A DNA stretch of 45,073 bases from a virus: positions 1-45,073 of IMG/VR virus record IMGVR_UViG_3300044855_000188; one strand, 5' to 3'. The position numbers were made by a program, and so were the translations under genes. Positions 756-45,073 of this stretch are shown one piece after another. Position 1 is the stretch's first letter, and the number at the start of each line of letters is the position of its first letter. The notes beneath the pieces are model-generated. The model saw nothing but the letters and a program-made list of their open reading frames with translations, had not been told where the DNA came from and searched no databases.

Positions 756-1387
756 CAGAATCGAAGTATATATTTAAGATCAAGAGAAATCCAGCGCCCT
801 TCGGTTTCTTTGAATAAGTCAACAATCACGGCGTCTGTCGCCAGCGTTTCCGTACCCTGATAGCGCCGTAGCCGTATCCAATTACGGCTGACAATATCCA
901 GCGTAAAGTTCTGCGTTCCCTGCCTAAAAACCAAACGCCCGGCGGCGTTTCGGCGGATGGATGCGGTGATTGGAGAGCCGCCGTCAATGCGAATAGTAGC
1001 CGAAATGCTCTGTATTGTATCCGGCAAAAATTCCTGGCCAACAGCGTTCTGTACCACGCTGAAATAATCCTGTCCAACAAGCCCGTTAAGCGCCGTGTTG
1101 GCCGCCACCACCTGTTGCCGCACCCGGTTAAGGCGTGCGACTTGTACGGCCTTGTTTGCGGCGTCGGTCGTGGCTGTGAATACCGGCCCGATAATGGCGT
1201 TTACCACGCCTGCTGTGTCCGCGCCCAAAGGCGTTTCTTCGGTCACGATCCGCCCGGATTGAAACGTTGTTTTCGTGACGGTGTAAAAGATGCCGCCCCG
1301 GTTTTCATAGGTGACGGCGGTTGTGTCCGGTTGATCTTGCGCCAACAAGGCAGCCGGGAAAAGGAGAAGGAAAAGGATGTGTTTCAT
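755..1387 (-). CDS. Secreted fibre-cassette protein, 210 aa, copy A
   Basis: Residues 1-16 are a signal peptide (MKHILFLLLFPAALLA, cleavage likely before Gln17). The rest is a soluble domain with many Thr and Val residues and an Arg/Leu-rich C-terminal part. I do not recognise the family. It starts 15 nt after the stop of the 675-aa fibre-like protein and is almost certainly co-expressed with it. A second copy lies at 43218-43850. The two differ at 9 residues, all beyond residue 80, and end at the same offset although the last bases differ. It could be a fibre-associated or adhesin accessory protein. A signal peptide is odd for a virion protein assembled in the cytoplasm. Confidence 0.75.
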   Translation of the reverse strand: MKHILFLLLFPAALLAQDQPDTTAVTYENRGGIFYTVTKTTFQSGRIVTEETPLGADTAGVVNAIIGPVFTATTDAANKAVQVARLNRVRQQVVAANTALNGLVGQDYFSVVQNAVGQEFLPDTIQSISATIRIDGGSPITASIRRNAAGRLVFRQGTQNFTLDIVSRNWIRLRRYQGTETLATDAVIVDLFKETEGRWISLDLKYILRF

Positions 1388-2610
1388 ATTTTAATGTTTG
1401 TTTTATCCGCGTTGCATTATAACCCAGTTCGTGCCATTTGATACCAGCAGCGCCCACGATCCAGCCGTTGCTGAAAGTATCGCCGTTCCCGCCGTATTGC
1501 TGCCAATAGGCAAAACGTTAGACGCGTTTGAGTTCACCGCAAAAGCGGTGATATTTTTGATTGTGAGTTCGCGGCCGCTCCAACTTGATGCCGCCGGAAG
1601 GGTGATCGTTGTTGTTGCTGTTTCGTCACAAATTAGCCACGTGGTAGATACGTCATTTGTCATGACGTATGCTGTGGCGTCAGTTGATACGGGCGCGTTG
1701 CGACCGAGGGTGCCTTCAATTTGCAACCTGTTTTCAGGACTTGTGCCGCTACCAATATTTACGTTGCCGTTGTGGTTAATTGTAAATCGTGCACTTCCTG
1801 AAGTTGCCCCGTTAGGAATCGTGTTAATTGTAAACCTCGCGCCATTTGCAGAGGTTGTCCAGTTTTCCGTAGCAACAGCAAGCATGACTACAGATGAAAG
1901 GGATGCGAACGCCGTCCCGTTATGGCCACGAAAAGCGTTTGCGCCCAATACATCTCCATTAAGGCAGGCTGTTGGCGACGCAATAGTTCCGTTCGCGCGG
2001 CGCTGGATAATGTTTGCGTTTGCTGTGTATCGCTCTACAACGAAGTTTGATGGGTCGCCTGAAACGTTCGTTACAAAGTGAAACTGACTTTGCGGCGAAC
2101 TTGTCCCAACACCCAGCCTGCTATTAGTCGCGTCCCAAAAAAGGTTTGTTGATCCGCTTGCCCGCCCATTCGCATCCGCAAAAAACACATTTCCCGCCGT
2201 ACCAAGTCCCGTACCCGTAGCCGAAATCAGCGGCGTTTCCCACGCGTCCGCGTCATAATACTCAAACGCCCCATTAGTAGTATTATAGCGCGTCATACCA
2301 ATAGTAGGCGTTCCCGGCCGCTCCGCCGTAGTCCCCAGCGGCAACCGCAAAGCGTCCCGGCCAACGATCTGAATGATCGTGTCCGCGCCAGAAATTGACT
2401 CTTGGACAATCGTCGAACCCAGCGCCGAACTTGATGTCCATTTCGGTATCGCGTTTGTCGTTGGCGTTCCCGTGATTGTTGGATGCCCGGTCGTGTTAAG
2501 GGCTGTGCCCGACATAGACAAATTACTACCCAACGTAATCGCGCTCACATTACCCGTACTACCGCGACCTAACAAATTAGAAGCCGAAAGCGCCACCTCG
2601 CTAAGGGTGC
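769..2610. repeat. Left copy of the ~1.84-kb end-to-end direct repeat
   Basis: This segment matches 43232-45073 in the same orientation with a constant offset of 42,463 bp. From about 1230 to 2610 I saw no mismatch. From about 1226 down to 769 substitutions accumulate, and similarity ends at 769, beyond which the two flanks are unrelated. It holds most of the 210-aa gene and the last ~400 codons of the 675-aa gene. Confidence 0.95.
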
Positions 2611-3430
2611 CCGATCCGCTGGCAGTACGAGCCAACACGCTGTTACCTGCTACGTTTTGGATTTTTGCGTAAGTCACCGCCGCGTCCGCAATACCCGCCG
2701 TCGCCACCGTCCCAAAGCCCAAAGTAGTACCCGACCTGCGCAACACAAAGCCGTCTGTACCCGCGTTTATTTCGGCGAAATCCCCGGCGCTGTTTGCGCT
2801 TCGCCCAACTACCGAAAGCCCGGCGGCTGCACTGTTCTGCATTTTCGCGAAAGTTATGGCGTCGTTAGCAACCGTAAAATTTGACCCGCTTTGGGTCAAA
2901 TCGCCACCTACTGTTATCTCTTCTACCGATCCAGCCCCGGCCGTTGCCCGGCCTAAAATGCGGTTTGTGTTGGATACGTTTTGGATTTTTGCGTAATTCA
3001 CAACGGTGTTATCGATCGTCCACGTAGCGCCGGAAGCGGATACCGTTATGTCGCCCTTGTCGCCGTCGGTCACGCCGCCGCCACCGCCACCGCCGCCAGC
3101 GTTAATCCGCACCCACGCGCCCGAACGGTAATAATACAGCGAATCACAGCCGTTCACAACAAACAGCGATTGCCCCGTGCCCGGCGTGTAGGCAGGTGCG
3201 GCGCACCCGGATATGGTTTGTATGCGCTCCCCGGCAAGGTTCCACGCGCTGCCATAATACACCCACAAGTCAAGGGTTGAATTATCAATCGCCCAGGCAG
3301 AACCGGACGCCGACGGCGTGTGCGTTGGCGTCCCGGTTGTGTAAGGTATAGCGGCCGTCTTCACGATCTGCGAAAATGCGGCAGCCGGAAAAATGAAAAT
3401 AAATAAAGAAAATAAATATTTGTTTATCAT
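1403..3430 (-). CDS. Tail-fibre-like protein with signal peptide, 675 aa
   Basis: Residues 1-20 look like a signal peptide (hydrophobic FSLFIFIFPAAAFS, then Q). Residues 112-119 are a run of eight glycines. Three spaced repeats with the core [YF]AK[IM]QN followed by a Gly/Ser/Ala-rich strand (near residues 147, 193 and 248) resemble the beta-structured stalk repeats of trimeric phage fibres. The middle (VGTSSP and INHNGNVNIGSGTSPENRLQIEG) is typical of fibre and adhesin proteins ahead of a C-terminal tip. The start overlaps the 71-aa gene stop by 4 bp (ATGA). The last ~402 codons are duplicated without visible change at the right edge. A receptor-binding role is likely; the export signal is unexplained. 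Confidence 0.75.
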   Translation of the reverse strand: MINKYLFSLFIFIFPAAAFSQIVKTAAIPYTTGTPTHTPSASGSAWAIDNSTLDLWVYYGSAWNLAGERIQTISGCAAPAYTPGTGQSLFVVNGCDSLYYYRSGAWVRINAGGGGGGGGVTDGDKGDITVSASGATWTIDNTVVNYAKIQNVSNTNRILGRATAGAGSVEEITVGGDLTQSGSNFTVANDAITFAKMQNSAAAGLSVVGRSANSAGDFAEINAGTDGFVLRRSGTTLGFGTVATAGIADAAVTYAKIQNVAGNSVLARTASGSGTLSEVALSASNLLGRGSTGNVSAITLGSNLSMSGTALNTTGHPTITGTPTTNAIPKWTSSSALGSTIVQESISGADTIIQIVGRDALRLPLGTTAERPGTPTIGMTRYNTTNGAFEYYDADAWETPLISATGTGLGTAGNVFFADANGRASGSTNLFWDATNSRLGVGTSSPQSQFHFVTNVSGDPSNFVVERYTANANIIQRRANGTIASPTACLNGDVLGANAFRGHNGTAFASLSSVVMLAVATENWTTSANGARFTINTIPNGATSGSARFTINHNGNVNIGSGTSPENRLQIEGTLGRNAPVSTDATAYVMTNDVSTTWLICDETATTTITLPAASSWSGRELTIKNITAFAVNSNASNVLPIGSNTAGTAILSATAGSWALLVSNGTNWVIMQRG

Positions 3431-3642: not shown

Positions 3643-3655
3643 TTTTTATTTTTTT

Positions 3656-4159: not shown

Positions 4160-4162
4160 TTG

Positions 4163-4705: not shown

Positions 4706-4706
4706 A

Positions 4707-10193: not shown

Positions 10194-12038
10194 CTACCAG
10201 AAATTAGATTTTCTTTTCGGCGTTTCCTCAGCACGCGGCTGCGGCGTTCGGCCGGTATATTTCGCCTGGAACGCGTCGAAGTGCTGATCCTCCCAGCGGT
10301 CAATACCGACCAGCGATGCGGCAGCGCGGGCGTACACCCGGCAGTCCAGTGGTTCATTGCGGTCGAAGTGTTTCACCCATTCCCATTGAGCGAACCCGCG
10401 AATCATTTTTTTCTGCAATTTTTCCGCCGTCAGGCCCTTAAAAAAGTTCGGCCCGTATTCCGGGAAGTGGCAATATCCGGCAGGCGCGTTGCCCGCTTCG
10501 TCCTTGTGCAGTTTCAGCCAGCCGTACAGTTCGGATTTGATGATCGAAACGCCGACGTTGTATAGCCCCAGCGCCCCGGCCGGTTTCCCGTCGCGTGTGC
10601 GGTCAACGGCGCGCGGGGTCGTTACCATCACCGGCTGTTTTTCCTGTCCCTTGATCGGCACCACGCGGGTCGGGTCGAAGCGCCTGCAAAAGTCATACAC
10701 CTGCGTAGTATTGTACCCGCTATCCACGCACATGCGCGCAAGGGAGAGCGACACGCCATCTTCGCGCTCCCATGTTTCGCCTACCACTTTCGCGAGTTCT
10801 TGCCAGACGGCGTGATCGGAGGTATTGCCCACCAGCACGCGGTAGTCCACCGACCACGACCTTTTAGATTTTCCCCAGCCTACTACTTCAAGTTCGATTC
10901 GATCTTTCTGCACGTCCACGCCGCACGTCAGCACGATAACGGATTTCGGCGGGCGGTTGATCGGGTATGTTTCCCGGCGGTTGTACAGTAGTTCCCATGC
11001 GGGCACTTCGCCCTGTTCCTCCCACGGCAGCCCCAGCACGGTGTTCGTGAATGCCTTCAACTTGTTCACGTCTTTCTGCGCCTCCTCCCAGTCGCGCACG
11101 GCGTCCGTCCATGAATACCAGCCGTACGGCGAATATAGCGAATTGATATGATACCCTGCCACGCGAGCGGTCTCGTTATCCGGCGCTTCAGGCGTCCAAT
11201 GCCCGGATTCCAGCATCAGCGGCTTATAACGCTCTTCGATCAGTTCAGCACAATGCGCGCATTCGTACTTCGCTGTTTCCGGCTGCCCGGTTTCCCAGCG
11301 CACCTGCTCCCAGACTAATTTTTGCAGGGCGCCGCAATGCGGACATGGAACGTGATAGTACCGCTGATCGGTTCCGAAAAATTCGCGTTCCACGACGGAC
11401 GCGCCCGCCGTTACCGGCGTCGAAACAATGTAGATTTTTCGACGCGCAAAGGTGCGGGTGCGAGCGAGCGCAAGGTCAATCGGGGATCCCTCGCCGTCCA
11501 GGTCATCCGGGTAGGCGTCCACTTCGTCAAGAAAAAGGTACCGCACCGGCATAGAGCGCAGGCCCACCGCCGAATTAGCGCCGGATAATACCAGCACGCC
11601 ACCCGGAAAAGATTTCTGCGTTGTGTTGTTGTCCCCGTCACGGCTGCGCACCGGTGCGATCTTGTCGCGCAGGCGCGGCGTCGCTTCAATCATCGGCGCG
11701 ATACGCATCTTGCTATTTCGCTTCACGGTTTCGTCCGTCGGCATAACTGCCAGCATCGGCCCCGGCGCGGCGTCAATGACGTACCCTATCCAGTTGCAGC
11801 CCGCCTCGGTGAACCCTAATTGCGCGCCTTTCATTACTATAATCTTCTGCGTCGGGTCATTGGCAGACAGGCGGTCGAGTATTTCACGCAGATACGGGGT
11901 GCGCGCCGTTCGCCACAGTCCCGGCTCGCTCGATGCAGTGGACGACAGGAGCCGGTGACGGTCGGCCCACTCCGAGACGGTTAGCGACGGTTCAGGTCGC
12001 AGCCCGGAAAGGAAGCCCGTAATCAGTTCGTATGCCAT
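10194..12038 (-). CDS. terL: Terminase large subunit, lambda gpA type, 614 aa
   Basis: The DNA-packaging ATPase-nuclease. I chose ATG 12038 (MAYELITGFLSGLRPEP) because the 26 residues of the longer frame are not family-like. Domains in order: ATPase with IIVMKGAQLGFTE (Walker A-like), VRYLFLDEVDAYP (Walker B), and SPVTAGASVVEREFF-like motif III (VSTPVTAGASVVE). A zinc-binding insert follows (CPHCG ... CAHC), then the nuclease domain with GVDVQKDRIELEV and the distal acidic cluster. The length is about that of lambda gpA (641). The small subunit lies 25 nt upstream. The leader is a CA-rich run (CGCAACACGCAACACACAACACC). Confidence 0.95.
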   Translation of the reverse strand: MAYELITGFLSGLRPEPSLTVSEWADRHRLLSSTASSEPGLWRTARTPYLREILDRLSANDPTQKIIVMKGAQLGFTEAGCNWIGYVIDAAPGPMLAVMPTDETVKRNSKMRIAPMIEATPRLRDKIAPVRSRDGDNNTTQKSFPGGVLVLSGANSAVGLRSMPVRYLFLDEVDAYPDDLDGEGSPIDLALARTRTFARRKIYIVSTPVTAGASVVEREFFGTDQRYYHVPCPHCGALQKLVWEQVRWETGQPETAKYECAHCAELIEERYKPLMLESGHWTPEAPDNETARVAGYHINSLYSPYGWYSWTDAVRDWEEAQKDVNKLKAFTNTVLGLPWEEQGEVPAWELLYNRRETYPINRPPKSVIVLTCGVDVQKDRIELEVVGWGKSKRSWSVDYRVLVGNTSDHAVWQELAKVVGETWEREDGVSLSLARMCVDSGYNTTQVYDFCRRFDPTRVVPIKGQEKQPVMVTTPRAVDRTRDGKPAGALGLYNVGVSIIKSELYGWLKLHKDEAGNAPAGYCHFPEYGPNFFKGLTAEKLQKKMIRGFAQWEWVKHFDRNEPLDCRVYARAAASLVGIDRWEDQHFDAFQAKYTGRTPQPRAEETPKRKSNFW

Positions 12039-12063
12039 GCGGTGTTGTGTGTTGCGTGTTGCG

Positions 12064-12612
12064 TTAGTTAATATCGCGCTTCGTAATATCCGACAACTGC
12101 GTGAGCGTATCCGCAATAGCGTCGGATATTACCTTGTGCGCCTCAGCACGGTCACGCGCCGCAAGTACGGTATCCGTCACGCGGTCGGGTATTGCCTGGA
12201 ATGCCGCGCGCACTTCCTGCCCCATTGCAAAAAGTTGCGCATAGACTTTTTTCTTATCTACCAGTTCATTTTTTGCTTTTCGCAGTTCAATCGCCTCAAG
12301 TTGCAACTTAATCTCGGCGTGCATTTTCTTAATCTCTACAAGGCTGCGCCCCTGCGATTCCGGCGCGGGCGTTCCACCCTCTGACGCCGCCTCAAGTTTC
12401 CCGTAGAACACCTCGTTTCGTGGATAGGCCGGATTGAAATTGCGCCCCCATTCCTTGGCAGCGACGACCAGCAGAATAGCCGGTCGGTTTTTTTCGTCGT
12501 ACTGCACGCCCTTCACGATCTTGCCGTCCTTAATCGCCTTGCGCACAGCGCCCTCGGTTACGGACAGGCGGCGGGCGAACTCGCGGAGGGATATGGTGTT
12601 AGTGTCACGCAT
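12064..12612 (-). CDS. terS: Terminase small subunit-like DNA-binding protein, 182 aa
   Basis: Residues 1-35 (ISLREFARRLSVTEGAVRKAIKDGKI) form a winged helix-turn-helix of the Nu1/TerS type, and residues ~95-175 are strongly helical and charged, as expected for oligomerisation. The position directly upstream of terL supports the role: recognition of the packaging site and loading of the large subunit. It overlaps the ParB-like gene by 8 bp. The call is from the fold pattern and position. Confidence 0.75.
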   Translation of the reverse strand: MRDTNTISLREFARRLSVTEGAVRKAIKDGKIVKGVQYDEKNRPAILLVVAAKEWGRNFNPAYPRNEVFYGKLEAASEGGTPAPESQGRSLVEIKKMHAEIKLQLEAIELRKAKNELVDKKKVYAQLFAMGQEVRAAFQAIPDRVTDTVLAARDRAEAHKVISDAIADTLTQLSDITKRDIN

Positions 12613-13168
12613 CGAAGCAGAAGTTACAGTTTGGGCACTTGCATTTTTTGCCGGATTTTTTTTGAATATCCGTATTTGTATTTTCGATATACGTTTTTTC
12701 TAATTGATTCGGCTCATTTCCTACCCCGGCGTCCCCAGCCCACCCCTCGGGCAATATCCCTGCATCGCTTTTTAGCAACGCGGAAATTTCCTGCTCATCG
12801 AACCCCAGCAGGTCAATATCGAAGTCGGCGTCTGCCAGCGCCTCGATTTCAACAGCCAGGCGCTCAAAGTCCCAGCCGGAAGATAGCCCGATGCGGTTGT
12901 CTGCCAGCGTCAGCGCCCGACGTTGGCGTTCGGACAGGTGCGTAAGCCGTATGACGGGGACGGCGTCAAGTCCCAGACGTTCGGCGGCCAACAGGCGACC
13001 ATGCCCGGCAATAACGGTATTACCGCCGTCGCAGATAATCGGGTTCGTAAACCCAAACTCCTTAATCGAAGCAGCGATTTGCGCTACCTGTTCCGGCGTG
13101 TGCGTACGGGCGTTACCTTCGTACGGGCGTAAGCGGTCAGGGTGAATGTATGTGACTTCCATTTTCAT
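12605..13168 (-). CDS. ParB/Srx-domain protein with C-terminal zinc ribbon, 187 aa
   Basis: Residues ~5-95 form a ParB N-terminal (ParB/Srx) domain: RLRPYEGNARTHTPEQVAQIAASIKEFGFTNPI, then VIAGHGRLLAAERLGLDAVPVI and TLADNRI. The extreme C-terminus carries C-x-C-x2-C-x2-C (CKCPNCNFC), a likely small zinc site. In many phages this ParB domain is fused to a DNA methyltransferase; here the methylase half is missing. The start at 13168 (MKMEV) is preferred over 13186 because TACCTTTG lies inside the longer frame, 5 nt before this ATG. It probably binds or nicks DNA next to the packaging site. Confidence 0.8.
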   Translation of the reverse strand: MKMEVTYIHPDRLRPYEGNARTHTPEQVAQIAASIKEFGFTNPIICDGGNTVIAGHGRLLAAERLGLDAVPVIRLTHLSERQRRALTLADNRIGLSSGWDFERLAVEIEALADADFDIDLLGFDEQEISALLKSDAGILPEGWAGDAGVGNEPNQLEKTYIENTNTDIQKKSGKKCKCPNCNFCFDA

Positions 13169-13173
13169 CGCAG

Positions 13174-13181
13174 CAAAGGTA
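13174..13181 (-). promoter_or_regulatory. -7 box TACCTTTG for the ParB-like gene
   Basis: On the minus strand the sequence reads TACCTTTG-ctgcg-ATG, a match to TAnnTTTG with 5 nt to the start. It implies a leaderless mRNA and fixes the start choice. Confidence 0.55.
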
Positions 13182-13186
13182 CGCAA

Positions 13187-13432
13187 GGTTTTGGGAAGTA
13201 CGCAAATATTTTTTTGGGCCGGCCAGCCGCCCGTAGGGGTTGCTCGGAGGCGGCTGGTCGCGTAAGAAACGGACAGCGGCTCGCTGGCGAAATTTCGGGC
13301 GTCGGGGCCGCGCAGAACGTCCTACCTGCGGAGAACCTAAACCCGTACCCCCAATTCCGCCCCGTACCCTATGCCACGCCCATCATACTGTCCCGGCACA
13401 CCCGTATAGACACTACCCCCGACACCTACACA
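13187..13432. other. Intergenic region with hairpin and G-rich direct repeats
   Basis: No credible gene is seen in these 246 bp. A 9-bp perfect stem, CCAGCCGCC (13223-13231) with GGCGGCTGG (13249-13257), may end the gpZ-like transcript, although no U tract follows on the minus strand. Two copies of ACACTACCCCC (13410-13420 and 13430-13440) lie 20 bp apart; their complement is G-rich (GGGGGTAGTGT). As the region lies just upstream of the ParB-like and terminase genes, a packaging (cos/pac) site is possible. Confidence 0.4.
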
Positions 13433-14026
13433 CTACCCCCCCGTCCGTATGCGCATTAGTTCGTGCGTGAGGCGTTGCGGGAACTTCTGGTTAATCGTAT
13501 CAGCAAGGTGTTTCAGGACGGTATTGTGCGACATAGCCTTCGGCACTGACACGCTGGTAAGTTGCGTGATCGGGAGGTCGTTTCCATTTTTTCGCAGGCG
13601 CTTATTTCGGTACTGAAATTCGTTACCATTGTACACGCCCCGTGCATATACACCCCGGCCTCCGCTGGGCATATTGGTAATGAATGCCGAACGCACTAAC
13701 TTGCGGGTTCCCATTACGTTCACTGATACCCCGCGTTTTCCCTGCCTTGCCCCAAACCCGATAAGCGGTAGTTTCACACCTTGCGCTAATAACATGCCGT
13801 GCTGCGCGATCTGACGGGCAACAGCGCGGCGTATAATCATAGCCCGGTTCACGTCTCTTGCCCGAATCTTATACACCGTTTGGATTTCACGCCGTGCGGC
13901 AGTTTTCGACTGCTCCAGCGTTCGGTTAATAGCGCGGGCAATACCGACGGCAATACTCTTATCGTTCAGGTCAGAAAACTCCCGTCGGGCGTCTGCAATG
14001 GCTTTTCTTACATTGATTTCAATCAT
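13433..14026 (-). CDS. Minor tail protein Z-like, 197 aa
   Basis: From ATG 14026 the protein reads MIEINVRKAIADARREFSDLNDK...ARAINRTLEQSKTAARREIQTVYKIRARDVNRAM, which matches the lambda gpZ (prophage minor tail protein Z) family, with the Lys/Arg-rich C-terminal half. Family length is about 190-200. It acts at the tail-head interface. A longer frame to 14125 exists, but a TATCTTTG box sits 5 nt before ATG 14026, so the shorter start is chosen. It is separated from the other tail genes and has its own promoter. Confidence 0.75.
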   Translation of the reverse strand: MIEINVRKAIADARREFSDLNDKSIAVGIARAINRTLEQSKTAARREIQTVYKIRARDVNRAMIIRRAVARQIAQHGMLLAQGVKLPLIGFGARQGKRGVSVNVMGTRKLVRSAFITNMPSGGRGVYARGVYNGNEFQYRNKRLRKNGNDLPITQLTSVSVPKAMSHNTVLKHLADTINQKFPQRLTHELMRIRTGG

Positions 14027-14031
14027 GGCGA

Positions 14032-14039
14032 CAAAGATA
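14032..14039 (-). promoter_or_regulatory. -7 box TATCTTTG for the gpZ-like gene
   Basis: The minus strand reads TATCTTTG-tcgcc-ATG, again with a 5-nt spacer. One of the TGTAAAC boxes (14063-14069) falls about 24-31 bp upstream, in the -33 region, so a protein bound there could control the promoter. Confidence 0.6.
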
Positions 14040-14062
14040 CGTTTTTCGCCCCAAAAAACCCT

Positions 14063-14436
14063 TGTAAACGGCCTTTTTTTGAAGTGTAAACAAGACTTGT
14101 TTACACCTAAATGATTGTTAATCAATTATTTATAAACATGTGTAAACAGGTGTAAACAGACCTTCGTTTACACTTTTTTCGCCGTAACTCTTTGATTATC
14201 AGACCTCTTTTATATTATATATTTATTTGTAAACAAATAAATAAATAAATATATCCCCATGGAAAGTTTTTTTAATTTTTAACAATAGGTATAGGTGTAT
14301 ATCTATGTATATAGGGGTATATATTCCTTTTTCTGTTTACATTGTTGACAAAATATGTAACTTGTTGATACTCTAAGCGTAACTGTGTGAATTTTTTTGC
14401 AAACAAAAGCCAAGTGTAAACAGGATTTTGTTTACA
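14063..14436. repeat. Cluster of TGTAAACA/TGTTTACA boxes (operator or iteron array)
   Basis: The AT-rich intergenic region holds at least nine TGTAAAC-type boxes. They are TGTAAAC at 14063-14069; a perfect inverted repeat with 11-bp arms and one central base at 14084-14106 (GTGTAAACAAG / CTTGTTTACAC); tandem GTGTAAACAG at 14140-14149 and 14150-14159; GTTTACAC at 14166-14173; TTTGTAAACAAA at 14226-14237; TGTTTACA at 14334-14341; and GTGTAAACAG at 14414-14423 with TGTTTACA at 14429-14436. The intervening DNA is nearly all A/T with ATAAATAAATAAAT runs. This is the look of a replication origin with iterons or of a multi-operator control region. No gene lies between 14026 and 14535. Confidence 0.75.
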
Positions 14437-14461
14437 TGGATGGGGCTGGATGCCCAAGGGC

Positions 14462-14496
14462 AAAAAAATAGCGCCCTATCTTACGACGGGGCGCTA
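14462..14496 (-). terminator. Rho-independent terminator of the lysis cassette
   Basis: On the minus strand TAGCGCCC (14496-14489) pairs with GGGCGCTA (14476-14469), an 8-bp perfect stem with a 12-nt loop, followed by seven U. It lies 39 nt after the hydrolase stop and would end the lysis operon before the TGTAAACA array. Confidence 0.85.
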
Positions 14497-14534
14497 AGTC
14501 ATGAAACAACTTATACCTAATTCTACTGCTCTGC

Positions 14535-15323
14535 TTATTTCGTTTTGCGGGCGAAGTCGTCACCTGCAATGATCGTTGTCGGAAAAAAGAAATTCGGATC
14601 GGCAATATAACGCGGGTCGCGCCGGCAAAGTTGAATAAACTGTTCGTGCAATATCCACGACCGCCCAACAAGACAGCCTTCCGACCACCAGCCAACGCGC
14701 TCCGGCCTTATGCCTACCCGCGTGCTGTGCTGGTTAATACCCTCCGCCCAGTCCAGCGCATCGCCTGTGCGCTTGCCGTCGCGGTTAGCGTCACGATGCA
14801 CTCGAAGCGGGCGACGTTGCACCAGCGCCGGGTGATTAGGCCCCTGCGTTGCCTGTCGGTGGAACCCCATCTGCCAGACGGCGAACTGCCCGAATTGAAT
14901 ACGCGCCACGCCTCCGCGACGGCGTGCGCCTTCGCTGTTCGTGGCTGCCAGTCCCGGCTCCGTGGTTGCCTCGGCATTGTGTACGATCACCGGGTGATTC
15001 CCGTCCATCTCGAACATGATAACAATCCGGCGGTCATTCCAGCCGTCTATGCGGTCTGCGTTCGGCGTTCCGTCGGAGTCTGCGCCTTCGATGTACACGA
15101 TGTTCACTTCCCCGGCCTTGCGTGCCAGGGCGTAGCCCTTCGCCGTCATGTATTGTACAATGCGCGTTGCCAGCGTCGGCTGCGTTGCCTGCAATTTCAG
15201 CGCGTTGGCGGTCGGCTGCGTTGCCTGTGTTTTCACCGCGTCAGCCGTCGGCTGTGTCGCCTGCGCGTTCCCGGCTCCGGCCTTTTCAGCCTCCCGATTG
15301 AACAACTTATGCGTTTTCCCCAT
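14535..15323 (-). CDS. Peptidoglycan hydrolase-like endolysin with N-terminal repeats, 262 aa
   Basis: Residues ~20-52 are three near-perfect 11-residue repeats (ATQPTADAVKT, ATQPTANALKL, ATQPTLATRI). The main domain (residues ~55-262) has ATTEPG, RIQFGQFAVWQMGFH, VHRDANRDGKRTGD, INQH, WSEGCLVGR and FPTTIIAGDD. I recall this pattern from phage and bacterial proteins thought to cut peptidoglycan; the S/E-x-G-C-L-V-G-R element with an upstream His resembles the His/Cys site of L,D-transpeptidase-type enzymes, so Cys and His are candidate catalytic residues. It has no signal peptide and needs a holin. It follows the spanin-like gene by 3 nt. Confidence 0.65.
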   Translation of the reverse strand: MGKTHKLFNREAEKAGAGNAQATQPTADAVKTQATQPTANALKLQATQPTLATRIVQYMTAKGYALARKAGEVNIVYIEGADSDGTPNADRIDGWNDRRIVIMFEMDGNHPVIVHNAEATTEPGLAATNSEGARRRGGVARIQFGQFAVWQMGFHRQATQGPNHPALVQRRPLRVHRDANRDGKRTGDALDWAEGINQHSTRVGIRPERVGWWSEGCLVGRSWILHEQFIQLCRRDPRYIADPNFFFPTTIIAGDDFARKTK

Positions 15324-15326
15324 GCG

Positions 15327-15863
15327 TTATTTTCTTTTTTTCAGGTATGCAATGAACCCCATGGTCATTATAATTGTCAGAATAAGATACAAATTTTCGA
15401 TCAGGGCTGTGCTTCCTGTCTCGTTGTTATATTCGCCCGCTCTTGCGCCCGACTTCGCTCCTGTGCCTGCCCCTGCGCGCTTCCCGTCCGTTCGTGTTGC
15501 CTGTACCGCCTGCACCTTGCGTGGCTTCGTGACGGCCTGCACCTTAATTCGGCGCGTGCCGTCGGCCTGCGTGATCGGCGTGAGCGTGATTGTGTGCGTA
15601 TCCGTATGCACCACCTGTTCGGACTGGGCGACGGCCTCGGCCAGCATTTCCACGACGGCGGTATCCGGCGGCAGTTCAACGGCTGCCAGTTCGGCGTAAT
15701 TGAACTCCCGTAACAGCACAACGCCGTTGTTTCGCTCATATTCGGCAATTATACTGTCTATTGCCGTTTGATGCGCCTGCATGTCCTCCGCGATTTTCGA
15801 TTGCAACACACAGCCAGGCAGGGCGAATAAGCCGGATATTGCCAGTAAGTAGTATTCTTTCAT
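15327..15863 (-). CDS. Candidate unimolecular spanin (lipoprotein plus C-terminal TM), 178 aa
   Basis: The N-terminus MKEYYLLAISGLFALPGC has a lipobox-like LPGC with Cys18, predicting an outer-membrane lipoprotein. The C-terminus carries one hydrophobic helix (residues ~150-173, NLYLILTIIMTMGFIAYL) and the basic tail KKRK. Between them lies a Thr/Val-rich then Gly/Ala/Lys-rich periplasmic stretch. A lipobox at one end and a membrane span at the other is the layout of one-protein spanins such as T1 gp11, which fuse the two membranes in the last step of lysis. It sits between the holin-like and hydrolase genes. Known examples are shorter (about 130 aa). Confidence 0.6.
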   Translation of the reverse strand: MKEYYLLAISGLFALPGCVLQSKIAEDMQAHQTAIDSIIAEYERNNGVVLLREFNYAELAAVELPPDTAVVEMLAEAVAQSEQVVHTDTHTITLTPITQADGTRRIKVQAVTKPRKVQAVQATRTDGKRAGAGTGAKSGARAGEYNNETGSTALIENLYLILTIIMTMGFIAYLKKRK

Positions 15864-15895
15864 CTGTATTTCATACGGATTTTGGCTCCGTTTTT

Positions 15896-16102
15896 TTATC
15901 TCCTATCCATTTTTTCAATCTGCGCCTTCAGTACCGATAGTTCCAGTTTCAGCAGCGACTGTTCGGCTTTCAGGTTCAGTACGGCCTCGTTCAGCGCCGC
16001 CTTGTGCGAGAACCATTGCCCCAGCAGGGCAATAATTAGAGAAAATATGTATATCAATTCGCGCGCGTTCAGTTTCAGCGGCTTTTCGGCGTCCGTTTGC
16101 AT
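15896..16102 (-). CDS. Holin-like membrane protein with coiled coil, 68 aa
   Basis: One hydrophobic helix (residues ~15-30, ELIYIFSLIIALLGQWF) is followed by a heptad-like coiled coil (LNEAVLNLKAEQSLLKLELSVLKAQIEKM). It is the first gene of the lysis cassette, 16 nt after a TATATTTG promoter box and directly after a strong terminator. Position and size fit a holin or a phage lysis regulator; one span is fewer than in the best-known holins. Confidence 0.55.
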   Translation of the reverse strand: MQTDAEKPLKLNARELIYIFSLIIALLGQWFSHKAALNEAVLNLKAEQSLLKLELSVLKAQIEKMDRR

Positions 16103-16119
16103 TCAATTGTTTTTCGCTG

Positions 16120-16127
16120 CAAATATA
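16120..16127 (-). promoter_or_regulatory. -7 box TATATTTG, promoter of the lysis cassette
   Basis: The minus strand reads TTTTTTTCG-TATATTTG-cagcg..., 17 nt before ATG 16102. It directly follows the terminator of the primase gene, so the lysis cassette is a separate transcription unit. Confidence 0.6.
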
Positions 16128-16129
16128 CG

Positions 16130-16161
16130 AAAAAAACCCCGCGCTCAAAGCGAACGCAGGG
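16130..16161 (-). terminator. Rho-independent terminator after the primase-helicase gene
   Basis: On the minus strand CCCTGCG (16161-16155) pairs with CGCGGGG (16143-16137) with one G-U pair and an 11-nt loop, followed by seven U. It ends the replication operon. Confidence 0.75.
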
Positions 16162-16186
16162 CCACACAACATTATCGGCTGCAAAA

Positions 16187-16194
16187 ATACTTTT
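16187..16194 (-). promoter_or_regulatory. Possible additional -7 box TATTTTTG
   Basis: The box TATTTTTG lies between the primase stop and the terminator. A transcript starting here would meet the terminator at once, so it may be a chance match or an attenuated start. Confidence 0.25.
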
Positions 16195-16214
16195 TTCAGC
16201 CGGATAACGCCGGA

Positions 16215-18851: not shown

Positions 18852-18878
18852 ATTAAAATATTAAATATGCGTTAAAAG

Positions 18879-19271
18879 TTAAAAATGTAACACGCCTACC
18901 TGCTCCGCATCCGTCAGCACCTCCGCAATACCGCCCGCCGTCCGTACCTGCGTAATGAAGTTAATTTGTTCGGCCGTCGGTTTTTTCCCCGGCACTTTCA
19001 CTTCGACGGCTGTGAAAACAGCGACCTTGCGCCCGACCATGTCCGGCGTGATCTCCAACGTAGTCCAGCCGATCAGGTCGCTACTGCCCTCGCACAGCCC
19101 GGCGTGCAACGGCCTTGCTCCATGAAGTGCGACGGTTCCGGCCTCCGTTCTATGTATTAGCCTCCCGGCCCACCCCATACCGACGTTGTTTCGGAACAGG
19201 CGGACGTGGGGCAGGCGTTTTGCCGCTGCGAGCAGGATTGCGCGTAGAGTGTTGGTTTCGGTCATAACCAA
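18879..19271 (-). CDS. VRR-NUC domain nuclease, 130 aa
   Basis: The protein has the VRR-NUC pattern of small stand-alone phage nucleases: RLFRNNVG near the N-terminus, EGSSDLIGW with the metal-binding Asp, AVEVKVPGKKPTAEQ with the E-x-K core, and INFITQVRTAGG. Such nucleases are thought to resolve branched DNA. The stop lies 27 nt upstream of the primase-helicase start, and the start overlaps the kinase gene by 10 bp, which places it in the replication operon. MTETN at 19265 is an equally good start. Confidence 0.85.
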   Translation of the reverse strand: MVMTETNTLRAILLAAAKRLPHVRLFRNNVGMGWAGRLIHRTEAGTVALHGARPLHAGLCEGSSDLIGWTTLEITPDMVGRKVAVFTAVEVKVPGKKPTAEQINFITQVRTAGGIAEVLTDAEQVGVLHF

Positions 19272-19795: not shown

Positions 19796-19809
19796 GTGTT
19801 TATGTGTTT

Positions 19810-20616: not shown

Positions 20617-20714
20617 GATTTCAATCCTTTTTTTTGTAAATCTTAATTCGTGCATCACGCGGATCCCGGTTCACAAAGAAGTTATTTTATTGTATTGTGT
20701 GTGTGTATTGTGTG

Positions 20715-34033: not shown

Positions 34034-34124
34034 TGCCCGGATGCGGATTCGAACCGCGTGTAAAAACCGCCTTCAGAACCGATTAAGGTTGCCGCTTCCT
34101 CCAAGTCCGGCTGCCAATCCGGGC
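34034..34124 (-). ncRNA. tRNA-like sequence with intact acceptor and T arms, degenerate core
   Basis: On the minus strand GCCCGGA (34124-34118) can pair with TCCGGGC (34041-34035), a perfect 7-bp acceptor stem with discriminator A (34034). A T arm with loop TTCGAAT precedes it (four of five pairs). The 91-nt span fits a class II tRNA. However, no 7-nt anticodon loop with a proper 5-bp stem can be formed, the D arm is not recognisable and no CCA is encoded. I cannot assign an anticodon. It may be a decayed tRNA, a tRNA-like RNA or an attachment-site remnant. Confidence 0.35.
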
Positions 34125-34129
34125 GAAAA

Positions 34130-34390
34130 TTAAGAGTGAGAGAGTGCTATCGGCTTCACGTTGGAAAAATACCAAAACACGTTTCCGCCCGCAACAGATT
34201 GAATACAGCGATTCATCCAATCAAAATCCATTTTTTCAATATCAGAAACGCTTTTCGCGTTCATAGTTGCGATTTCTGCCGCCTCTGCGTACTTACGCGG
34301 CTTGTTGCAGTGCATTAACGCAGTGGCAACTGTTGTAGCATTGGGGGTGAAAGAAACAGTACCGTACAGTGAAATAAAAACCTTTTTCAT
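34130..34390 (-). CDS. Moron-like protein, 86 aa
   Basis: The 86 residues (MKKVFISLYGTVSFTPNATT...DFDWMNRCIQSVAGGNVFWYF...) match no family I know. The gene has its own promoter (TATCTTTG, 34438-34445), is more A/T-rich than the tail genes and interrupts the baseplate operon between the hub and the spike, beside the tRNA-like sequence. Its leader is nearly the same as that of the 230-aa orphan at 24342-25034. This is the layout of a moron: an added gene with its own promoter. Confidence 0.65.
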   Translation of the reverse strand: MKKVFISLYGTVSFTPNATTVATALMHCNKPRKYAEAAEIATMNAKSVSDIEKMDFDWMNRCIQSVAGGNVFWYFSNVKPIALSHS

Positions 34391-34437
34391 GTCTCAAAAA
34401 ATTAGTGAGTAAAAAATATTTTGTTTGTTTGATGATA

Positions 34438-34445
34438 CAAAGATA
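34438..34445 (-). promoter_or_regulatory. -7 box TATCTTTG of the moron-like gene
   Basis: The minus strand reads CTTGCGCGTATTTGCATAAC-gcag-TATCTTTG, very close to the promoter at 25082-25089. The region from 34391 to 34560 holds this promoter and no gene. Upstream of it, runs of A and T continue to the end of the hub gene, with the near-repeat AACGAACGT(C/T)AAAAAT. Confidence 0.65.
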
Positions 34446-34560
34446 CTGCGTTATGCAAATACGCGCAAGTTTTTTTGTAACTTTTTTTCAAAAAATATAA
34501 CGAACGTCAAAAATGTACAATGAACGTTAAAAATACGACCATTTTTCGATGCCAAAATGG

Positions 34561-35541
34561 TCAGCCGACCTTTTTCACCGTCAGGTCGGTCGTATATCCG
34601 CTTGCGCGTGATAGCGAGTGCCTGCTTTCTTCGATATGATACATGCCGGATAATACGCCCAGCCCCGTGAGCGTGAAATTGCTGCCAGCCACCAGCAGCG
34701 GATCACCAGGCAGGGACAGGCTGCCGGATTGCCGCCGCGTGTTCGCCCTGTGTAGCGCCGCCCTTGCCTGCGCCTGCGCCTGCGTTGGCGTTTCCGCCTT
34801 GCATTGCAGTACCAGGGTATCGCCGGACGTATCGGCAGCCGTCGCCGTCTCCGTGTGGCGGATAACTTTTTTCTGTACCGGATCGTGGTACTTCACCTCC
34901 GCAGCCTTATACGTTTCGGCGGTCTTATCCGTCAGGCTGTACCGTATCAGGTCGGTGCGGTCAACTTCAGACACCGCGTCAGCGCCTTCCAGTCCATAGA
35001 TTGTCTGGAACACCAGCAAGTCCCCGCGAACGCTGAAAACATGCCCGTACTTCCACGATATGCGCTTAAGGAACGCAAGGTCGGTTTCCCGATATTGTGT
35101 TGCGCGATTGATTCGGATTTCTTCGATTTCACCCTGCACAGTCAGCCCGTGAGCGCCTCCAATGGTATTGGCAATTTCCCGCAGTGTCTTGTTTTCGTGC
35201 GCCGAATTGTTGCGCGTGCGGATTGCGGGCTGCGTGCCCGTTGCCATGCCCCGGATTGATACCACGTCCGGCGGCCCGCTTATTTCTATTTCGTCTATCT
35301 GAAAAACGCCGCACGGCAGCAGCAGGTCGGTATATCCGGCCTCCACCTGCAATGTATCGCCCTTCGTCGGATACCATGCCCCGCGCCATAGCCCGTCCGT
35401 ATCTTCAAGTTGTATTTCGATCGTGTCTGATTCGCCTTCCGTCTTATCTGTGTACGTCACCCCCGTAACGTACGGCGTCAGGTCGGCCGTTACGTCCTTA
35501 TTATTGTAGGTTATCTTATAGGCTATTTCCCGTACTTTCAT
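34561..35541 (-). CDS. Baseplate hub protein D (P2 gpD/Mu gp44-like), 326 aa
   Basis: The protein fits the gpD (gp27-like hub) family: VTYTDKTEGESDTIEIQLEDTDGLW, YPTKGDTLQVEAGY, VFQIDEIEISGPPDVVSIRG, REIANTIGGAHGLTVQGE and 'ETDLAFLKRISWKYGHVFSVRGDLLVF'. It forms the trimeric ring to which the spike binds. Length is normal (P2 D has 387). It lies 4 nt downstream of X, as in P2. Confidence 0.92.
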   Translation of the reverse strand: MKVREIAYKITYNNKDVTADLTPYVTGVTYTDKTEGESDTIEIQLEDTDGLWRGAWYPTKGDTLQVEAGYTDLLLPCGVFQIDEIEISGPPDVVSIRGMATGTQPAIRTRNNSAHENKTLREIANTIGGAHGLTVQGEIEEIRINRATQYRETDLAFLKRISWKYGHVFSVRGDLLVFQTIYGLEGADAVSEVDRTDLIRYSLTDKTAETYKAAEVKYHDPVQKKVIRHTETATAADTSGDTLVLQCKAETPTQAQAQARAALHRANTRRQSGSLSLPGDPLLVAGSNFTLTGLGVLSGMYHIEESRHSLSRASGYTTDLTVKKVG

Positions 35542-35545
35542 ACTT

Positions 35546-35767
35546 TCAACGCTTCCAAGGCGGTAACAGGTTAGCAGCGGGCTGCGTTGCAGCGGCCTGC
35601 TCCAATATCGGAACCATCACGCGGATGCCAGCCGGATATTCAGCCTGAATAGGCAGCGCCGAATTAGCCTGCAATACGTCAGCCCAGGCGAACGGGTCGC
35701 CGTACGCCTTGTACGCTATCATATCCAGGCGGTCGCCCTCGTTCGTGATGTATTCGGTGTAAGGCAT
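35546..35767 (-). CDS. Tail protein X (LysM-like), 73 aa
   Basis: The 73 residues fit the P2 gpX family: YITNEGDRLDMIAYKAYGDPFAWADVLQANSALPIQAEYPAGIRVMVP. This is a LysM-like domain that helps to attach the hub to the tail tube. Located between gpU and gpD as in P2. Confidence 0.92.
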   Translation of the reverse strand: MPYTEYITNEGDRLDMIAYKAYGDPFAWADVLQANSALPIQAEYPAGIRVMVPILEQAAATQPAANLLPPWKR

Positions 35768-41976: not shown

Positions 41977-42098
41977 TATACGTCTGCGTCCATGCCGGAC
42001 GCTGCTTTCATCGTGACGGCTGCCAGCGCGACGGTGGGCAGTATTACTGCACAGAACACCGCCGCCCAAAATGCCCGGATAATTTTTTTCATGTTCAT
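41976..42098 (-). CDS. Membrane microprotein, 40 aa
   Basis: The 40 residues (MNMKKIIRAFWAAVFCAVIL then PTVALAAVTMKAASGMDADV) have a basic start and one hydrophobic helix ending in ALAA, so this is a membrane anchor or a signal peptide. It starts 1 nt after the glycine-rich fibre gene ends. Confidence 0.5.
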   Translation of the reverse strand: MNMKKIIRAFWAAVFCAVILPTVALAAVTMKAASGMDADV

Positions 42099-42099
42099 A

Positions 42100-43218
42100 T
42101 TACAAAAAGATTATACGCACGTAACCATTGCCGCCGTTGCCGCCCGCGCCGGAGTTGTTTCCGTTCACACTCGCACCACCACCACCGCCACCGCCGCCGC
42201 GTACGCCGTTACCGCCAAGTCCTCCAGCGCCGGTTAGGCTGGACGCTCCACCGCCGCCGCCGCCGCCGCCAGTTGTTTGCCCCTGTAACGGCGAATACCC
42301 CCCGGACGCGTTTGGGTTTGCGACCGTGCCCCGGTTCACGACCAAGATTTGCCCGTGAACCACCGACTGCCCGCTGCTACCGTCCGATGCGGCGTTGCCG
42401 GATGTAATACCGCCACCAGCGCCGCCACCCGACGGGCCTCTCGACGAAGCAGCGCCTGCGTCCTGCCCCGCTCCGCCGCTTGTTGACGCCGAATTGCCGG
42501 CGCTGCCTTGAAAGTCGCCAGACGTACCAGCAGCACCGCCAGGGCCACTTGATGTGGTACCCCCTATTCCCGCTCCGCCTCGGAGCGCAAAACACAATAT
42601 CGCGTTCGTGTTCGACGTAACCTGCGAAGACGTGCCAGGGCTACCGTTCGCGCCGTCTGTACTGTCCACTGTACGGGCTGTACCACCGCTCCCTCCAGCG
42701 CCGACCGTAACTTTTAGCGGCCCGTCAATATCGCCCGCGCGTACCGTGATGGTAGAAAAAGTACCGGAACCGCCACCGCCTCCGCCACAGCGAACCGTCC
42801 CCGCAGCGCCCCGGCGCCCGGAACCGCCGCCAGCGCCAGCGCCGATGCAAATAATATCTATGAGCGTTGCGCCGGTCGGGATTGTAAGCAGTTCGTTGGT
42901 AACGGGGTTGCTATATTCGTATACCACCGGCGTGAACGCAGCGGCAGGCGCAGCGACCGGGATCCATGCCGTACCGTTCCATTGCAATATCTGCCCGTTC
43001 GTTGGCTCCGTCGCAGATACCGAGCGCCCGCGAATGCCGACTACTTCGGCACCGGTCAGCGGCCCGTCAATATCGCCCGCCGTGTCCTTAGATTGAACGT
43101 AGGCAGCCAGTTGGTCAGCCGTGTACTTGAACGTCTGCGCGCCCAGTGAACCGGGTAACTGCGTGTCCGCAACTACCTGTTGGCCGGGTTCAAGTTCGGA
43201 AATTTTTTTGTTCGCCAT
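42100..43218 (-). CDS. Glycine-rich tail fibre, 372 aa
   Basis: Residues 1-110 form a typical fibre N-terminus (MANKKISELEPG, DIDGPLTGAEVVGIRGRSVS and QILQWNGTAWIPV). From ~residue 128 the protein is dominated by polyglycine stretches (GAGAGGGSGRRGAAGTVRCGG, many GGGG blocks) with a few hydrophobic turns, ending NGYVRIIF. Polyglycine-II bundles of this kind occur in the adhesin tips of T4-like gp38 and other fibres and mediate receptor binding. Its start overlaps the 210-aa gene by one base (TAATG), so the whole cassette is co-translated. Confidence 0.85.
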   Translation of the reverse strand: MANKKISELEPGQQVVADTQLPGSLGAQTFKYTADQLAAYVQSKDTAGDIDGPLTGAEVVGIRGRSVSATEPTNGQILQWNGTAWIPVAAPAAAFTPVVYEYSNPVTNELLTIPTGATLIDIICIGAGAGGGSGRRGAAGTVRCGGGGGGSGTFSTITVRAGDIDGPLKVTVGAGGSGGTARTVDSTDGANGSPGTSSQVTSNTNAILCFALRGGAGIGGTTSSGPGGAAGTSGDFQGSAGNSASTSGGAGQDAGAASSRGPSGGGAGGGITSGNAASDGSSGQSVVHGQILVVNRGTVANPNASGGYSPLQGQTTGGGGGGGGASSLTGAGGLGGNGVRGGGGGGGGASVNGNNSGAGGNGGNGYVRIIFL

Positions 43219-43850
43219 TATTTTCGCAGATTATATTTAAGATCAAGAGAAATCCAGCGCCCTTCAGTTTCTTTGAACAGATCAACAATCACGGCGTCTG
43301 TCGCCAGCGTTTCCGTACCCTGATAGCGCCGCAAGCGTATCCAATTACGGCTAACGATATCCAGCGTAAAGTTCTGCGTTCCCTGCCTAAATACCAAGCG
43401 CCCGGCGGCGTTTCGCCGGATTGATGCGGTGATGGGAGAGCCGCCGTCAACGCGCATAGTAGCCGGGATACTTTGTAATGAATCCGGCAAAAATTCCTGG
43501 CCAACGGCGTTCTGTACCACGCTAAAATAATCCTGTCCAACAAGCCCGTTGAGCGCCGCGTTGGCCGCCACCACCTGTTGCCGCACCCGGTTAAGCCGTG
43601 CCACCTGTATAGCCTTGTTTGCGGCGTCGGTTGTGGCTGTGAATACCGGCCCGATAATGGCGTTTACCACGCCTGCTGTGTCCGCGCCAAGCGGCGTTTC
43701 TTCGGTCACGATCCGCCCGGATTGAAACGTTGTTTTCGTGACGGTGTAAAAGATGCCGCCCCGGTTTTCATAGGTGACGGCGGTTGTGTCCGGTTGATCT
43801 TGCGCCAACAAGGCAGCCGGGAAAAGGAGAAGGAAAAGGATGTGTTTCAT
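43218..43850 (-). CDS. Secreted fibre-cassette protein, 210 aa, copy B
   Basis: It has the same layout as the left copy: a signal peptide (residues 1-16) followed by a Thr/Val-rich domain. Nine residues differ, clustered beyond residue 80: V to I, T to A, T to S, I to L, S to P, I to M, I to V, I to N and F to K, reading from copy A to copy B. The N-terminal ~80 residues are identical. It starts 15 nt after the truncated fibre-like gene ends and couples to the glycine-rich fibre, so here the cassette appears complete. Function unknown. Confidence 0.75.
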   Translation of the reverse strand: MKHILFLLLFPAALLAQDQPDTTAVTYENRGGIFYTVTKTTFQSGRIVTEETPLGADTAGVVNAIIGPVFTATTDAANKAIQVARLNRVRQQVVAANAALNGLVGQDYFSVVQNAVGQEFLPDSLQSIPATMRVDGGSPITASIRRNAAGRLVFRQGTQNFTLDIVSRNWIRLRRYQGTETLATDAVIVDLFKETEGRWISLDLKYNLRK

Positions 43851-45073
43851 ATTTTAATGTTTGTTTTATCCGCGTTGCATTATAACCCAGTTCGTGCCAT
43901 TTGATACCAGCAGCGCCCACGATCCAGCCGTTGCTGAAAGTATCGCCGTTCCCGCCGTATTGCTGCCAATAGGCAAAACGTTAGACGCGTTTGAGTTCAC
44001 CGCAAAAGCGGTGATATTTTTGATTGTGAGTTCGCGGCCGCTCCAACTTGATGCCGCCGGAAGGGTGATCGTTGTTGTTGCTGTTTCGTCACAAATTAGC
44101 CACGTGGTAGATACGTCATTTGTCATGACGTATGCTGTGGCGTCAGTTGATACGGGCGCGTTGCGACCGAGGGTGCCTTCAATTTGCAACCTGTTTTCAG
44201 GACTTGTGCCGCTACCAATATTTACGTTGCCGTTGTGGTTAATTGTAAATCGTGCACTTCCTGAAGTTGCCCCGTTAGGAATCGTGTTAATTGTAAACCT
44301 CGCGCCATTTGCAGAGGTTGTCCAGTTTTCCGTAGCAACAGCAAGCATGACTACAGATGAAAGGGATGCGAACGCCGTCCCGTTATGGCCACGAAAAGCG
44401 TTTGCGCCCAATACATCTCCATTAAGGCAGGCTGTTGGCGACGCAATAGTTCCGTTCGCGCGGCGCTGGATAATGTTTGCGTTTGCTGTGTATCGCTCTA
44501 CAACGAAGTTTGATGGGTCGCCTGAAACGTTCGTTACAAAGTGAAACTGACTTTGCGGCGAACTTGTCCCAACACCCAGCCTGCTATTAGTCGCGTCCCA
44601 AAAAAGGTTTGTTGATCCGCTTGCCCGCCCATTCGCATCCGCAAAAAACACATTTCCCGCCGTACCAAGTCCCGTACCCGTAGCCGAAATCAGCGGCGTT
44701 TCCCACGCGTCCGCGTCATAATACTCAAACGCCCCATTAGTAGTATTATAGCGCGTCATACCAATAGTAGGCGTTCCCGGCCGCTCCGCCGTAGTCCCCA
44801 GCGGCAACCGCAAAGCGTCCCGGCCAACGATCTGAATGATCGTGTCCGCGCCAGAAATTGACTCTTGGACAATCGTCGAACCCAGCGCCGAACTTGATGT
44901 CCATTTCGGTATCGCGTTTGTCGTTGGCGTTCCCGTGATTGTTGGATGCCCGGTCGTGTTAAGGGCTGTGCCCGACATAGACAAATTACTACCCAACGTA
45001 ATCGCGCTCACATTACCCGTACTACCGCGACCTAACAAATTAGAAGCCGAAAGCGCCACCTCGCTAAGGGTGC
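43232..45073. repeat. Right copy of the ~1.84-kb end-to-end direct repeat
   Basis: This is the counterpart of 769-2610. From about 43694 to the window end I saw no difference from the left copy. Synonymous and missense changes begin near 43689 and grow denser toward 43232. The window ends inside the repeat, so its true outer end is unknown. Confidence 0.95.
43866..45073 (-). CDS. Tail-fibre-like protein, second copy (cut by window edge)
   Basis: The visible ~402 codons equal residues ~274-675 of the left copy at 1403-3430, with no visible change, including the C-terminus LTIKNITAFAVNSNASNVLP and WALLVSNGTNWVIMQRG. The N-terminal part lies beyond the window. If the genome is circular with a 42,463-bp period, this is the same gene as the left one. 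Confidence 0.85.
   Translation of the reverse strand, partial: TLSEVALSASNLLGRGSTGNVSAITLGSNLSMSGTALNTTGHPTITGTPTTNAIPKWTSSSALGSTIVQESISGADTIIQIVGRDALRLPLGTTAERPGTPTIGMTRYNTTNGAFEYYDADAWETPLISATGTGLGTAGNVFFADANGRASGSTNLFWDATNSRLGVGTSSPQSQFHFVTNVSGDPSNFVVERYTANANIIQRRANGTIASPTACLNGDVLGANAFRGHNGTAFASLSSVVMLAVATENWTTSANGARFTINTIPNGATSGSARFTINHNGNVNIGSGTSPENRLQIEGTLGRNAPVSTDATAYVMTNDVSTTWLICDETATTTITLPAASSWSGRELTIKNITAFAVNSNASNVLPIGSNTAGTAILSATAGSWALLVSNGTNWVIMQRG

Follow-up and report, generated by a model that had tools for sequence, protein, structure and literature searches.

A metagenomic virus contig that very probably fuses a circular contractile-tailed phage with a second phage at a shared tail-fibre cassette

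The window analyzed here, which is one complete virus record of 45,073 bases, is very probably a chimeric metagenome contig in which a circular phage (phage A) has been misjoined to a second phage (phage B) at a stretch that both have in common (core R). We infer that the joins were made by an assembler and not by the phages, and we likewise infer the assembler and its k. Unrelated sequences meet at core R (1230 to 2692), with phage B on its left flank and phage A making up the rest of the window, and each side is continuous with its own partner in a relative (one relative each: G005 for phage A and G007 for phage B). The repeat found at both ends of the window is most likely no feature of a phage genome, and the cassette shared by the two phages, composed of a fibre tip and a 210-aa gene, appears to be the real biology beneath the assembly effect. 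The features on which this reading draws are as follows.

1 to 570, minus strand: phage B, start of the terminase large subunit (314 to 3, running off the contig) and a 51-aa ORF (315 to 470); 83.9% nucleotide identity to G007
501 to 768, minus strand: phage B, 50-aa hydrophobic microprotein ORF (603 to 755) and flank, of the sort located behind the cassette in B-type and siphovirus-type phages; 73.5% nucleotide identity to G002, 69.1% to G004
755 to 1387, minus strand: 210-aa cassette partner gene, copy in phage B context; relatives in IMG/VR
1230 to 2692, minus strand: shared core R, 1,463 bp, C-terminal part of the fibre and start of the 210-aa gene; window equals the B-to-A copy in G001
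1403 to 3430, minus strand: phage A fibre gene, 675 aa, with a signal-peptide-like N-terminus and DUF5907 repeats
2566 to 2692, no strand: branching 127-mer where the upstream paths of A and B meet; G001 ends at 2566
2611 to 43231, no strand: part of the phage A genome present in single copy in the window; collinear with G005
42100 to 43218, minus strand: phage A glycine-rich tail protein after the cassette, 372 aa; PF21722 and minor-tail PHROGs
43218 to 43850, minus strand: 210-aa cassette partner gene, phage A copy
43693 to 45073, minus strand: second passage through core R as the phage A circle wraps around; same sequence as 1230 to 2610

Comparison of the window with itself at a constant offset of 42,463 defines the anatomy of the repeat. 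Positions 1230 to 2610 equal 43693 to 45073 over 1,381 bp with 0 mismatches, a length of exact match that puts a chance origin out of question. Positions 769 to 1229 differ from 43232 to 43692 at 35 of 461 bases (92.4% identity), and before about 769 similarity is at background level only. Thus, the repeat falls into three plateaus with abrupt edges: identical, about 92% identical, and unrelated. The coordinates, the offset, and the identity of the outer 1.38 kb or so given by a first-pass annotation of this sequence are exact. Its description of the inner 0.46 kb or so as diverging step by step is mistaken, since 60-base bins from 781 to 1260 hold 51 to 58 matches each with no trend. The outer edge of the repeat (768/769) lies 14 bases within the end of the 210-aa gene (755 to 1387 and 43218 to 43850), and beyond it the flanks are unrelated, as had been annotated, with a glycine-rich 372-aa protein on the right and small ORFs on the left. 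Further direct repeats of at least 30 nt in the window are only 34 to 36 nt long, and a search of the window for inverted repeats of at least 30 nt yielded none.

A long, near-identical repeat close to both contig ends could signify a linear phage with ordinary terminal redundancy, one copy of which has mutated. A direct terminal repeat would consist of identical copies at the outermost ends; here the left copy runs from 769 and is in part at 92.4% identity, and because it starts 768 bases inside the contig end it is not a terminal repeat. Furthermore, the flank outside it is terminase DNA of another kind of phage, although phage A has its own terminases at 10194 to 12612, and the exact end repeat of the A-type relative G005 is 127 bp (lengths of 20 to 399 tested). 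The position of the left copy and the terminase flank of the other phage both contradict plain terminal redundancy, and the chance that this explanation is correct is close to negligible.

To judge from its gene content, phage A appears to be a complete-looking contractile-tailed phage lying between the two repeat copies. It encodes small and large terminase subunits, portal, head, neck, sheath, tape-measure, baseplate, and fibre proteins, along with a primase, a helicase, an SSB, and a RecT-like protein. Its relative G005 (IMGVR_UViG_3300045534_000075; 45,933 bp) closes as a circle, as indicated by the 127-bp end repeat. Except for a few that are short and weak, the tblastx matches of G005 follow a single order around the window, from 41085 down to 3559, through the fibre (in both repeat copies), and then from 43230 down through the sheath at 41409 to 40960. 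In other words, G005 is collinear with phage A across the contig ends. After its fibre, G005 carries a 144-aa gene, a glycine-rich 422-aa gene, small genes, a 64-aa gene, and the sheath gene, and the start of the 422-aa gene, which is located between fibre and sheath, resembles that of the glycine-rich 372-aa gene of phage A. This gene order indicates that phage A natively continues from its fibre into the flank seen at the right of the window. It is most likely that phage A closes over the repeat as a circle of 42,463 bp, or is circularly permuted.

The left flank has a different origin. Positions 314 to 3 hold the opening 104 codons of a gene for a terminase large subunit; taken alone, this fragment has just a weak match among the PHROGs (E=0.012). 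However, G007 (IMGVR_UViG_3300016663_000133; 32,153 bp), a B-type relative, encodes a 693-aa protein whose beginning shares 88% identity with the 104-aa ORF and which matches the phrog_6681 terminase with E=1.4e-49. The second terminase-like gene that had been annotated at the left is accordingly real. At the nucleotide level, window positions 570 to 1 align with 12025 to 12591 of G007 (reversed) at 83.9% identity. G007 carries, in order, a GroEL gene, its own fibre, a 144-aa gene, a microprotein region that is 80 to 81% identical to those of G002 and G004, and the 693-aa terminase. Over the 6,328 bp that lead from the GroEL gene up to where the fibre starts, it is also 91.5% identical to the left part of a second public record, G001 (IMGVR_UViG_3300035663_000004; 87,523 bp). 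Because G007 joins the match to the left flank of the window and the match to the left part of G001, with a fibre between them, both B flanks belong to one kind of phage.

The donor of window positions 1 to about 1229 would thus be a different, podovirus-like phage and no close sibling of phage A. The putative assignment as podovirus-like draws on a distant terminase resemblance to the Cellulophaga phages Calle and phi19:3 and on the lack of a sheath match: phrog_23 has no match in G007 or in the left part of G001, in both of which the B genome is incomplete. Calle is described as a podovirus-like Cellulophaga phage (PMC8776804), and phi19:3 (Pachyviridae) carries tail-fibre genes and GroES-annotated genes followed by terminase and portal genes. 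In a comparison with core proteins of Pachyviridae and Pervagoviridae that covered the terminase alone, identity to the terminases of phages such as phi19:3 and Calle_1 is only about 24%, although the match with Calle_1 takes in 97% of the B-type protein. Phage B would therefore be at most a distant relative of these phages. These findings uphold one half of an explanation in the first-pass annotation, namely that the contig represents a circle of 42.46 kb with a foreign left end of about 1.2 kb (as borne out by G005 and G007). The other half, in which the donor was a sibling phage, gives way to a donor of another kind.

The join in the window has a reciprocal counterpart in G001. The right part of that record equals window positions 2566 to 45073 with 0 mismatches over the whole range compared. 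In its left part are genes for a GroEL-like chaperonin, a 3,142-aa LPD23-domain protein, an exonuclease, and a fibre of approximately 2,290 aa. This part and the window share one block of 2,331 bp at 97.8% identity and three other nucleotide matches (65 to 519 columns, 68 to 80%); tblastx of the window against this part revealed no additional structural-gene block. None of the 10 left-part proteins scanned matches a terminase or portal PHROG. Searches of the whole record with phrog_15 and phrog_2 yield the terminase of phage A alone, and phrog_6681 yields nothing. The absence of the phrog_6681 terminase from G001 and its presence in G007 are expected if G001 ends before the downstream flank of phage B. 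Specifically, G001 joins the region upstream of the core in B to the region downstream of it in A, and the window joins A upstream to B downstream, such that the two records cross-join A and B at the same common stretch of 1,463 bp. Two records carry a cross-join at core R, and none of those compared carries a native join at this core, either A to A or B to B. Both records, the window and G001, may have been assembled from one set of reads and hence may not be independent.

The positions of the joins and of the record ends were compared with the branching points of a reconstructed graph. Going upstream, the window and the B-to-A copy in G001 first differ at 2693, and 13 differences occur between 2693 and 3091. 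In a k=127 graph built from the window and G001 positions 1 to 60,000, branches are found only at 2566 to 2692 and at 1230 to 1356 / 43693 to 43819. G001 ends exactly at 2566, a branching vertex at k=127, and the right end of the window (equivalent to 2610) is off any such vertex. Branch positions are unchanged at k values of 77, 99, and 141, and extra branches appear at k=55; thus, a k of 127 is pointed to only by the coordinate at which G001 ends, 2566.

A circle that has one stretch in common with a longer path can be assembled as a loop on that path. The assembler would similarly have read the small circle of phage A as a loop on the longer path of phage B. In this scheme, the path of the window would make one round of phage A, cross core R a second time, and stop inside it. 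At its other end, the path would take the wrong exit from core R and continue into phage B downstream of the core, with its version of the 210-aa gene, the microprotein, and the start of the terminase. The window would read B downstream, R, once round A, and R again, and G001 would read B upstream, R, once round A, and on to the fork. The repeat would then be the self-overlap of the circle, presenting the A version at one end and the B version at the other. The two R copies in the window may be perfectly identical because one graph edge was used twice, and for this reason their identity does not prove that the A and B cores are identical in nature. The fork in the assembly arises because A and B really share the cassette of fibre tip and 210-aa gene.

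The same two records could instead be true pieces of a cointegrate of the form B-R-A-R-B, generated by a single crossover in the core. Together they provide exactly the two junctions of such a molecule, and phage A encodes a RecT-like annealing protein. However, the A-type G005 is a closed genome without B, the B-type G007 passes from its fibre to the microprotein region and terminase with no A insert, phage A by itself seems fully equipped with structural and replication genes, and G001 ends at the k=127 fork. We consider this origin of the records quite unlikely, and it is similarly improbable that the population contains real cointegrates formed through recombination within the cassette. 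A smaller true join, in which a minority variant of phage A has recombined with B and carries the downstream flank of the latter, would accord with the exchange of cassettes between A and B kinds over evolution. This variant would have the start of the B terminase in place of the glycine-rich and sheath genes of phage A, and with only about 1.2 kb of B on the contig a viable recombinant is not evident, making this a very unlikely source of the contig. The overlap between the window and G001 is also consistent with one true genome of about 90 kb, a candidate that we rejected since G005 and G007 each have their own part without the other. The first-pass proposal of two neighbouring elements, which would lie in one molecule, is improbable, as the pattern occurs in neither relative.

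If misassembly of phage A onto phage B is the correct reading, then G001 appears to fuse two different phages and would mislead analyses of genome size, taxonomy, and host, such that both the window and the public 87.5-kb record are in need of the correction made here. Repeats and common stretches in mosaic phages are known to produce branching graphs, fragmented assemblies, and chimeric contigs, as outlined in the Phables report (PMC10563150). The present case is like the chimeras described there in being a misjoin driven by a repeat, and unlike them in that the reciprocal join is present in a second record and the partners are known through relatives.

Beneath the misjoin, the cassette itself has the properties expected of an exchanged module. 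High identity between the otherwise unrelated genomes is limited to it (2,331 bp at 97.8%). Downstream, it stops 14 bases short of where the 210-aa gene ends; upstream, it reaches to about 3091, within the N-terminal region of the fibre and next to a module that related fibres also carry. The unit of fibre and 210-aa gene is present in A, in B, and in two phages of siphovirus type, G002 and G004 (G004 contains the sequence of G003 without a difference), whose fibres have a similar leader and an N-terminal region closely similar to that of the phage A fibre. G004 closes through a 127-bp end repeat, carries a phrog_9 terminase together with portal, head, and tape-measure genes, and has no match in a search for a sheath; its probable siphovirus type is deduced from this gene content and the missing sheath match.

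An alternative unit, composed of a glycine-rich fibre tip and the 144-aa gene, is shared by G005 and G007 (75.4% over 1,307 columns, with 144-aa proteins that are 88% identical). In G007, this alternative unit is followed by the same microprotein region that trails the 210-aa unit in the siphovirus-type phages. Thus, the slot is filled by either of two units, and each has turned up in one phage of the A type and one of the B type; the sample behind this is small (two A-type phages, two of B type, and two distinct ones of siphovirus type). This provides a clean case of a unit of fibre tip and partner gene common to phages of seemingly three tail types. The presence of two alternative units in the same slot makes the pairing of unit to host testable. 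The cassette would putatively carry host recognition and set host range. A swap of a host-range module between co-occurring phages, which had also been proposed from the sequence, is supported in part, in that the cassette of A and B is the source of their common stretch and would putatively act on host range. More speculatively, the mobile unit, both genes of which have Sec-like leaders, might be a plug-in host-recognition cassette that is passed around among contractile, short-tailed, and long-tailed phages infecting a single host, and that is perhaps exported to the host surface as well as being incorporated into virions.

Fibre domains reportedly move between phages, as seen by Haggard-Ljungquist and co-workers in their study of P2 tail fibres. 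Modules of receptor-binding proteins transfer horizontally among Klebsiella phages (PMC6872550), and such transfer is well enough known that the cassette described here adds one more instance to an established class. The cases are alike in that fibre domains move and the remaining genome differs. They are unlike in that the unit here combines a fibre tip with a neighbouring gene (of 210 or 144 aa), occurs in uncultured phages, and has two alternative forms. A further parallel is the pair of fibre and chaperone reported for Alteromonas myovirus V22 (PMC7289586). There, too, a fibre-adjacent gene travels with the fibre, whereas the 210-aa and 144-aa proteins have no PHROG match, would have a chaperone role only putatively, and in the case of the 210-aa protein begin with a signal-peptide-like sequence.

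Searches with the individual proteins and sequences of the window recovered few relatives. IMG/VR scans with the 210-aa protein found four loci, or five when an alignment served as the query, including a 43% identical relative (L145). No relatives of this protein were found among phage records, and in genome_contigs none of 454 matches to patterns spanning only its N-terminus was confirmed. The structures predicted for the 210-aa protein and the fibre tip (mean pLDDT 46 and 37, respectively) are unusable. An exact search of viral_contigs for the first 40 bases of the window returned nothing, possibly because the record of the window itself was left out. The sole relative of the phage A terminase in genome_contigs, at 30% identity in a Planctomycetota MAG, is little informative. 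A fibre search gave 79 loci, mostly weak, with G001 as the only close match. Finally, between the B and A copies of the 210-aa gene, 29 base changes fall in synonymous codons and 12 in residue-changing codons (stop codon excluded), a weighting by which both copies look like working genes under constraint rather than products of sequencing error.

The public record IMGVR_UViG_3300035663_000004 (G001; 87,523 bp) appears to be a chimera, in which two different phages are fused at the fibre core, near position 45,000. The right end of the window, 45073 (equivalent to 2610), lies 82 bases before 2692, the final base common to the contractile-tailed phage A and the podovirus-like phage B, and does not coincide with a k=127 vertex, a branching 127-mer in an assembly-type graph. 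At 10986-20414 and 34061-35653 of G001, phage B encodes an LPD23-domain protein of 3,142 aa and a chaperonin that is GroEL-like.

Outside the cassette formed by the fibre and the 210-aa gene, matches involve the following region of phage A.

Window 19262-21563: PAPS-reductase-like, dNMP-kinase and metallophosphoesterase genes

The left part of G001 matches the first two genes at ~68% nucleotide identity, and siphovirus-type phages match the third at 70-72%. Therefore, phages A and B and the siphovirus-type phages have further genes in common, albeit at lower identity.

A glycine-rich fibre tip and a 144-aa gene are likewise common to an A-type relative (G005, IMGVR_UViG_3300045534_000075) and a B-type relative (G007, IMGVR_UViG_3300016663_000133). 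This pair is a second exchangeable unit.

G005 41985-43275 and G007 (reversed) 10548-11834: glycine-rich fibre tip and 144-aa gene, 75.4% nucleotide identity

Both the fibre and the 210-aa protein open with a Sec-type leader-like sequence.

Window 1403-3430, 755-1387 and 43218-43850: leader-like start
G001 38104-46223: leader-like start
Fibre genes of G002 and G004 (siphovirus-type phages carrying the fibre and 210-aa unit): leader-like start

By eye, such a start also opens the 421-aa gene preceding the phage B fibre, and none was seen in the G005 fibre. Of the 50 listed window genes, 7 pass a simple hydrophobicity scan; besides the fibre and the two 210-aa copies, these comprise four further genes. 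A leader-like N-terminal start is unusual in a virion fibre.

Within the ORF at 14535-15323, a 36-nt unit occurs three times in tandem (window 15175-15282), with the other two copies 81% and 67% like the first.
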